This document shows, piece by piece, positions 37,152 through 39,324 of a stretch of 39,754 nt of DNA. Both the position numbers and the translations under genes were made by a program. Origin of the DNA: Cyanodermella asteris. Taxonomy: Eukaryota > Ascomycota > Lecanoromycetes > Ostropales > Stictidaceae. Position 1 is the first letter of the stretch; every line of letters begins with the position of its first letter. The stretch lies in the NCBI GenBank assembly GCA_900618795.1, contig UYJD01000004.1, positions 446,824 through 486,577 on the forward strand, given 5' to 3'. The notes beneath the pieces are model-generated. The model was not told the DNA's origin. It ran no database searches and saw only the letters and a program-made list of their open reading frames with translations.

Positions 37152-38702
37152 ATGATGAGCCCTTCACTGAAAAGACAAGCACCTGCGGCTCCGCCAAAAC
37201 ATGTTGCCGCCATTTTCGTCCACGCCGGAGCCGGATACCATAGCACCCAAAACGAACATGTCCATCTCCAGGCTTGTGCAGACGCCGTCAAAATGGCCAT
37301 GGCCTCGCTAAAGGCCGGCGGCTCAGCTCTGGATGCAGTTGAATTCGCAATCATGTCCCTCGAGGATAATGAAGTGACCAATGCAGGTTACGGCAGTAAT
37401 TTGACACAGGAGGGCCTGGTTGAAGGCGACGCTACCATTGTTGATCACCTTGGACGAAGCGGCGCTGTAGGCGCCATAGGCAGTAAGCTTTGACCAAGAT
37501 ACTCGATCTGGCCAACGCTAGTTACTGACGCTTGCACAGGAGTACCTAACCCTATTCAAGTGGCGCGCCAGGTTTACGAGCGCAGCACTAAGCCAATGGC
37601 CCTGAGACGTGTCCCACCCAATCTGCTAGTGGGAGACGGAGCGACGGAATTTGCCCGTGAGAACAGCCTCAGAGTGGTGGCCAATGCGAATTTGGTATCG
37701 TATGGTGCCCGGGACCGCTACAGGAAATGGCAACAAGATATTCAGGTCGCTGAAGGCAGCCAATCGCCGGAAACAAACCGTGATAGTCCCTCAAGCGACG
37801 ACTTCGAACACGATCTGAATGAGGAGGAACAACAGACCATCCGAGACTACGGGCCGGCAGCGTCAAACAACCCTACGATCGCCGCTCTAGCAAATGAGAG
37901 CCAGCCTTTCTCTCCTGCTAAGGACAGGGATCACTTCACTGAGCTATTCCCCACGTCAGCAGCACGGGGCCACAGTGGACCGAACAAATTGCGTCGTCGA
38001 TCCCATTCTCGTACATCTGCTGCCAATGGTCATGCGGATAGCTTCTTTGACAAGTTGGAGACAAACCTGGATCCGGGCTTGATCGACATGGATCGTTTCT
38101 TTCAGGATTTAGGCCCGCCTCCAGACACGACTGGCGAATTCTATTCCTTTGCACTCGGGCCAGACAGCGATGTGAAAATCGACAACAGTCTTAGTTTTCT
38201 CGATTTTCCATCCAGCCCGAAGGATAATGCACGAGGTGAAGCAGGAATGTCCCGAGACGAGCGGGATGCTCACGCCGAGGACATGATCAGCGATACCGTT
38301 GGTGCTATTGCTGTTGACGCAGATGGGAACATTGCGGCAGCGTCCTCGTCAGGGGGCATTGGTATGAAACACAGAGGACGAGTAGGCCCTGCAGCCCTGG
38401 TCGGCGTCGGTACTGCTGTGATCCCTATCAGCCCCGAGGACAAGGAGCGCTGCACTGTCGCATGTGTCACCAGTGGCACTGGCGAGCACATGGCGACATC
38501 AATGGCTGCCGGCACTTGTGCACAGAGGATGTATAACTCTTGCAAGGTCGACTCAAAGGGAACAACAGTACCTTGCGATGAAGATGAAGCTATGCAAAGT
38601 TTCATTAAGAGAGACTTCATGGGTCATCCGTCCGTCAAGAATTCTACAACAGGGGGCGCAATTGGCACGATGGCTGTCAAGAAAACGAGCGAAGGTCTGT
38701 GA
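37152..38702 (+). CDS. TASP1: Threonine aspartase (taspase-1-like Ntn hydrolase)
   Basis: An N-terminal-nucleophile hydrolase of the asparaginase-2/taspase family, which autocleaves before a catalytic Thr and then works as an Asp-specific endopeptidase. Exon 1 37152-37482, intron 37483-37539 (57 nt, TTACTGAC branch), exon 2 from 37540. The alpha part contains IFVHAGAGYHS, GGSALDAVEFAIMSLED and NAGYGSNLTQEG. The presumed nucleophile is Thr363 in SDTVGAIAVD, followed by SSSGGIGMKHRGRVGPAA and CVTSGTGEHMATSMAAGT. A long polar linker (about residues 155-355) sits before the cleavage site. The first start is ATG 37152; 37155 is also possible. The frame stops at TGA 38700-38702, giving 497 aa, but the same frame continues to 38933 with family-like sequence (separate entry). 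Confidence 0.9.
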
Positions 38703-38933
38703 CTATACTTCGCTCACAACACTAACAGTTTCGCGCTGGCCAGTATGCATTCTAACGATACAGAACCACACACTGTCATGAGCCGAAGCTCAAAGCAGGG
38801 AAGGGTCGTCACTGGTGCACGTTCAATGCGCCCGGTACCTGCACAAACAACGAGTTCGCCTCTTCCCAAGTCACCGAAGGCGAAACGCTTCAAACAGAAC
38901 CGGCCGAGCGTGGGCGACTCAGGCGCCGGCTAG
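38703..38933 (+). other. In-frame extension of threonine aspartase after TGA CTA
   Basis: The frame after the TGA stop runs 76 codons to a TAG at 38931-38933. Its first residues, LYFAHNTNSFALASM, resemble the C-terminal motif (HNTDSFALASM-like) I remember from fungal taspases, and a polar tail follows. The stop is directly followed by CTA, the best-known readthrough context. A splice explanation fails: a 34-nt candidate intron from 38697 shifts the frame out, and the only frame-keeping one, 38699-38728 (30 nt), is too short and has its branch site against the acceptor. So the residues are likely translated by readthrough, or the stop is a recent nonsense change or sequencing error. Confidence 0.6.
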
Positions 38934-39324
38934 AAGTCGTCTTTTGCTGCGTTTGCCACGACACAAGATGGCTCGAATTCGTTGAAGCGGTCCGCTACCA
39001 CGAGCTTAGGGTATGACAAAGGGGCGCAGGACACGATGCCGAGTCTGGGTTTGGGTCGCAAAGCGTCGAAAAAAGGGTTGATGGGTCGATTTGACTGGTT
39101 GGATTGGCGTGGAAACAGCAAAGGGCTGGAACGAAAGACCAGCAACGTTGGAGCTGGCAGAGAGCCCTGACGGGGAGGCTTGTTTCCATAGTCTGTCTTT
39201 CATCGCATTGCGACTTGGAGAGCTACAGCCCCGAACTTGGGACGAATCCCACGAAGCCTGCTAAGGAGATGATAATGACTTTGATGACCGGGATAGAATT
39301 AAATCAACCAATGCTGTTTACCGC
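38934..39324. other. Gap threonine aspartase / right-edge gene
   Basis: About 390 bp between two convergent ends. Small frames on both strands have no motif. No gene seen. Confidence 0.45.

Follow-up and report, generated by a model that had tools for sequence, protein, structure and literature searches.

In Cyanodermella asteris, a threonine-aspartase-like gene is interrupted by an in-frame TGA, directly followed by CTA, ahead of what is probably the coding region for the last core strand of the catalytic domain. The reading that we prefer, although in our estimation it stops just short of an even chance, is that a nonsense change has generated a premature stop whose surroundings happen to be leaky.

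Results

The gene lies on the forward strand in contig C11 of a genome of 28.5 Mb in 25 contigs; unless stated otherwise, positions refer to the window, the whole stretch of 39,754 nucleotides that was analysed. RPS3 of this genome differs from the fungal PDB chains 7olc and 7r81, of Chaetomium and Neurospora, at 4 and 5 of 155 aligned positions, which suggests a filamentous ascomycete. Exon 1 (37152..37482) presumably begins at the first ATG, at 37152 (the next is at 37155), and its translation matches positions 2-91 of the PF01112 (Asparaginase_2) profile (E 6.5e-16). A 57-nt intron (37483..37539; GTAAGC ... CTGAC ... CAG) joins it in frame to exon 2 (37540..38702, TGA included), an open frame that matches the same profile (E 7.2e-20), both matches being above the curated cut-off. 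When exon 2 was used as a phmmer query, human threonine aspartase 1 (taspase 1) was the top match (4.2e-16) and the best relative among solved structures, in keeping with the identity proposed by an earlier, sequence-only reading of this DNA. Alignment with the human enzyme places a predicted catalytic threonine (38295..38297) at the N-terminal threonine of the human beta subunit, directly after the aspartate of the cleavage site and within an intact catalytic block, D/TVGAIAVD. The two proteins share the blocks around this residue, with 36% identity over the aligned part of the beta subunit in a pairwise alignment with the truncated fungal form, whereas the alpha/beta linker and the basic tail are unmatched in the alignments. 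By sequence homology, the gene is a threonine-aspartase-like Ntn hydrolase of the type-2 asparaginase family PF01112.

A whole-genome DNA search matched this locus alone. An intact duplicate elsewhere in the genome was thus rejected, and the gene, being single copy at the DNA level, is not the decayed duplicate of an intact one. A further gene with PF01112 matches, on C6, represents another member of the family, and no stop falls inside those matches. The 497 codons ahead of the TGA form an uninterrupted frame with no further lesion, either frameshift or extra stop, and their codon usage is ordinary (codon scores of 0.108 for exon 1 and 0.079 for the final 76 codons of exon 2; the median for coding sequence is 0.086). 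RIP was also considered and rejected, as the gene lacks its dinucleotide signature (0.56 and 1.31, versus 0.58 and 1.28 for the window).

At the stop, the frame reads GAA GGT CTG TGA (38691-38702) and continues CTA TAC TTC GCT CAC AAC. The TGA occupies 38700..38702, with G at 38701 and its A at 38702; TGA CTA spans 38700-38705, and the base after CTA is T. Just as the sequence-only reading described, the frame then stays open, for 76 codons in all, to a TAG at 38931-38933 (extension, 38703..38933). The extension carries a basic tail and ends in SGAG, with no PTS1 or other known signal at its end. This TAG may be the normal end of the gene. Behind it lies a second in-frame open stretch that the earlier reading overlooked, 78 codons from the TAG to the next TGA (38934..39170), whose translation (codons 38934-39167) begins KSSFAAF and includes GRFDWLDWRGNSKG.

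The open length behind the TGA is ordinary and is no evidence by itself: at least 76 open codons follow the stop in 4 of 40 long open reading frames (ORFs) in 200 kb of C15 and in 8.6% of 12,174 background runs, and 2 of 40 long ORFs in that sequence have two such runs in succession. In codon usage, against the ordinary coding median given above and a wrong-frame median of -0.084, the extension scores 0.042, which is the 35th percentile of coding windows and is reached by 7.3% of wrong-frame runs; the first 76 codons of the second stretch score 0.008 (20th percentile; 13.7% of wrong-frame runs). Based on these scores, the 76-codon extension is likely coding.

The codons immediately behind the stop, LYFAHNTNSFALASM (38703..38747), align with the human C-terminal strand WSHTTESMCVGYM. 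Against the human C-terminus (60 residues), the first 24 residues behind the stop attain a score of 31; 10 of 5000 shuffles and 66 of ~20,000 random 24-codon genomic translations do so too, while the score of the full 76 residues is reached by 73 of 5000 shuffles. Translated in the five alternative frames, this DNA scores 16-25 against the human segment. Frame 0 of the extension is the best of the six by codons, and the optimum of the family profile within the extension falls at offset 0 of 63, the expected position of the strand. Furthermore, phmmer with the read-through form, written with an X, placed this post-stop stretch on a single human chain, although with low confidence.

Several other comparisons returned no signal. 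The Pfam and PDB scores did not rise with the extension (Pfam, 50.1 versus 50.7), the Pfam match stopping before the X, and the C-terminal 98 residues alone had no match in PDB or Pfam. No resemblance to the extension was seen in the C6 paralogue (1203/5000 shuffles), and a bacterial family block was not significant (1713/3000 shuffles for the 76 residues and 782/3000 for the first 30); with the human row added, these values became 248/3000 and 136/3000. The human fragment did not match the 42 residues immediately upstream of the TGA (3266/5000), and, since it is unmatched even there, the region as a whole is divergent. No relatives came up when viral and genome contigs were scanned for exact peptides. 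Of 149 loci that a two-row profile matched in genome contigs, 80 (labelled bacterial or archaeal) were kept, alongside one viral-contig locus from IMG/VR; 61 of these 81 loci had a usable frame, and a C-terminal block was present in 57 of the 61 (16 distinct), the selection having left out any locus that lacked the nucleophile pattern and any protein that lacked the C-terminal block. A model of the beta part with the TGA read as W, predicted without relatives, had a mean pLDDT of 33.5 and was set aside.

The claim that the post-stop residues resemble the family C-terminus is upheld, the shuffle test providing moderate evidence. The codons of the first 24 post-stop residues probably specify the final core strand in the catalytic domain; the extension as a whole is probably the original C-terminus. 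Thus, while the C-terminal strand of human taspase 1 is similar to the fungal residues behind the stop, the fungal frame, unlike the human one, is broken by the TGA before this strand, and no uninterrupted frame contains the strand region complete with what precedes it.

CTA is an uncommon neighbor: it follows just 163 of 23,058 codons, and among the 1881 that are one base from TGA it follows 19. Among long ORFs, the taspase-like gene itself is the only one of 14 in the window to end in TGA CTA, and none of 39 in C15 does so. In a study of Ustilago maydis, CUA after UGA is sufficient for readthrough, with CU accounting for most of the effect (PMC4207609), which substantiates the earlier statement that TGA CTA is a known readthrough context. 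The fuller motif is UGA CUA G; the literature used also includes PMC7306014, PMC12233894, and PMC3102056. In the U. maydis UGA-CU(A) readthrough genes Tpi1, Rpe1, and Art1, the extension adds a PTS1 to the enzyme (PMC4207609). The gene described here resembles them in having TGA followed by CT, in its best form CTA, and an in-frame extension. In contrast to theirs, its extension lacks a PTS1 and seems to code for a portion of the catalytic domain. A complete protein before the stop, a feature of readthrough genes that we deduce from the known cases, is likewise missing, with the C-terminal-strand region placed behind the TGA on moderate evidence. Searches of the open-licence literature on fungal taspase and readthrough brought up no paper that concerns this gene, judged by its title or the opening of its abstract.

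As to the use of UGA-CU elsewhere in the genome, four known cases were examined: triosephosphate isomerase (TIM), ribulose-phosphate 3-epimerase (Rpe1), PGK, and GAPDH. One TIM gene (L112; G000:C14:750653-751078, +) ends in TGA CTC, followed by the five-residue extension LGAKM, whose AKM end we take to be PTS1-like. L112 is hence a candidate for UGA-CU readthrough, in the same enzyme as in U. maydis. The other TIM gene (L111) ends in TAG without a PTS1-like end. The Rpe1 gene (L109; G000:C15:1234770-1234964, +) has TGA GAT and then DEKWAAQRSRL and a stop, in which SRL is PTS1-like but the context is not UGA-CU. The PGK gene (L006; G000:C10:379712-380875, -) ends SSK TAG GCA, and its next 24 in-frame codons end in KQKL, which is not a standard PTS1. 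GAPDH, with TGA ATC and the extension IT, lacks the UGA-CU arrangement. These observations make UGA-CU readthrough for targeting plausible in C. asteris and say nothing direct about the taspase-like gene.

A perfect 8-bp inverted repeat, overlooked by the sequence-only reading, surrounds the stop. Its arms, GAGCGAAG (38687..38694) and CTTCGCTC (38708..38715), enclose a 13-nt loop (38695-38707) that contains the TGA. The 86-nt stretch around this predicted hairpin has a fold z of -2.44, and 3 of 200 shuffles are equally stable. Such loops contain 36 of 23,097 codons of ordinary ORFs, although the hairpin was noticed after folding four stretches, which makes the coincidence weaker than this count suggests. 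The hairpin is one of six such repeats in the window (stem of at least 8, loop of 3-15), and its 29-nt sequence (38687-38715) occurs once in the genome. Downstream of the stop, any stem-loop is weak or absent (z of -1.25 and -0.21, near chance). As a ribosome positioned at the TGA would have melted the hairpin, it would not act as a classic stimulator of readthrough. The position of the stop in a hairpin loop suits editing of the RNA or a hotspot of mutation. Bases in such loops of single-stranded DNA change more easily, which counts in favor of a nonsense change here.

Intron candidates of 34 nt (38695-38728) and 30 nt (38699-38728) overlap the stop, as the earlier reading stated, and neither is a good one. 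That reading missed an in-frame 45-nt candidate, GTGACT..CTAAC..CAG (38699..38743), which would remove the TGA and the next 14 codons. Donor GTGACT with a branch motif and acceptor is not enriched, occurring 3 times versus 7 in a reversed-sequence control; introns with the donor GTRAGT, by comparison, are most abundant at 50-54 nt (10 versus 1 in the control). No candidate intron with a branch motif spans the TAG. From these features, no convincing intron removes the TGA, and use of the 45-nt candidate is unlikely.

Discussion

We propose that a nonsense change placed a premature TGA where the final core strand of the beta subunit begins. The majority of ribosomes would terminate there, giving a protein that lacks the last strand and is probably unable to fold into an active enzyme. 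UGA-CUA being a weak terminator, a small amount of full-length protein would be expected as a by-product, softening the loss without the stop having been selected as a switch. The earlier reading had envisaged two isoforms; since the terminated product lacks the region aligned to the last catalytic strand, we infer that it would be defective and not an alternative enzyme, and that part of the proposal does not stand. An ordinary coding score and an open upstream frame are what would be expected if the change were recent.

Two observations count against a nonsense change. A random nonsense change would fall in the leaky context by coincidence only about 1% of the time, as follows from the 19 of 1881 codons counted above, and, with no second lesion in the codons upstream, there is no independent sign of decay. 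The alternative with the strongest remaining claim, although we regard it as unlikely, is programmed readthrough, in which TGA CTA is conserved and selected and provides full-length enzyme at a set low rate. The leaky context favors readthrough over a random nonsense change, by up to about a hundredfold. The TGA CTA core is the one tested in a fungus (PMC4207609), and CTA is rare as a next codon. In addition, the genome seems to contain another UGA-CU case in the TIM gene with TGA CTC and an extension ending in AKM, and the extension of the taspase-like gene looks conserved relative to human taspase. However, the stop lies within the catalytic domain, so that the short form would be useless, and the extension ends without PTS1 or another known signal. 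Moreover, T and not the favorable G follows CTA, and the hairpin contains the stop itself and would be melted by the ribosome, the stretches downstream folding near chance. Disabled alleles are common in single isolates, and recoding inside a catalytic domain is, to our knowledge, very rare in fungi. It is these base rates, which are our own judgment, together with a putatively inactive short product and the lack of a signal in the extension, that lead us to prefer a premature stop to programmed readthrough.

An error of assembly or sequencing at the stop codon, with the gene itself intact, is less probable still. A single substitution would be enough, with the frame kept on either side, and the 8-bp inverted repeat around the stop is of the kind that can disturb base calling; on the other hand, substitutions in a consensus are rare.

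We give little credence to A-to-I mRNA editing, by which the adenosine of the stop would be changed to yield a sense codon at some stage, as in the premature-stop genes of Fusarium. The perfect hairpin whose loop holds the adenosine is stable, and fungal editing favors such a structure; in F. graminearum, 70 genes besides PUK1 depend on editing for the correction of premature stops. As PMC11156358 and PMC11169179 describe for F. graminearum PUK1, AMD1, and CHE1, an in-frame stop here interrupts a needed domain and lies in a predicted hairpin loop. But the stops described there are UAG with U before the A, whereas the taspase-like gene has UGA with G before the A. More generally, the same literature places U before the edited A in >70% of F. 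graminearum sites, A or G at +1, where C stands here, and reports the premature stops as UAG. It describes editing as established only in Sordariomycetes and one Pezizomycete, the species of Aspergillus and Botrytis that were examined having shown none.

Equally improbable is that the protein in this lineage truly ends at the TGA, with SEGL as its last residues, and that the resemblance behind it is due to chance. The open length is ordinary, the extension raises neither the Pfam nor the PDB score, the C-terminal piece alone finds no matches, and the bacterial family profile is not significant. Against this stand the similarity to the human enzyme directly behind the stop, rarely equaled by shuffles, the profile optimum at the expected offset, and the preference for frame 0 among the six.

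Removal of the stop by splicing, through the 45-nt intron or another short one, seems to us the least probable of these explanations. The candidate keeps the frame and carries GT..CTAAC..CAG, its branch motif lying 18 nt from the end, but its donor is not enriched, introns with GTRAGT peak at a greater length, and its excision would take out the strand's own 15 codons, the Pfam score being 50.7 for the spliced and truncated forms alike. Selenocysteine was rejected, as the stretches of the genome that were covered gave no tRNA-Sec match at E <= 0.001 (53 of 2739 candidates scored).

A premature stop by nonsense change remains our preferred reading. If the stop is not conserved, the gene is simply a disabled allele of the usual sort, and it shows that leakiness at a stop does not in itself point to programming. 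A more speculative view, to which we assign a small but real chance, is that a conserved UGA CUA sits in a hairpin loop inside the last core strand, such that readthrough or stage-specific editing would complete the catalytic fold itself and not add a targeting extension. If the stop is conserved, recoding would decide whether the enzyme folds, and a role of UGA-CUA outside peroxisomal targeting would become testable.
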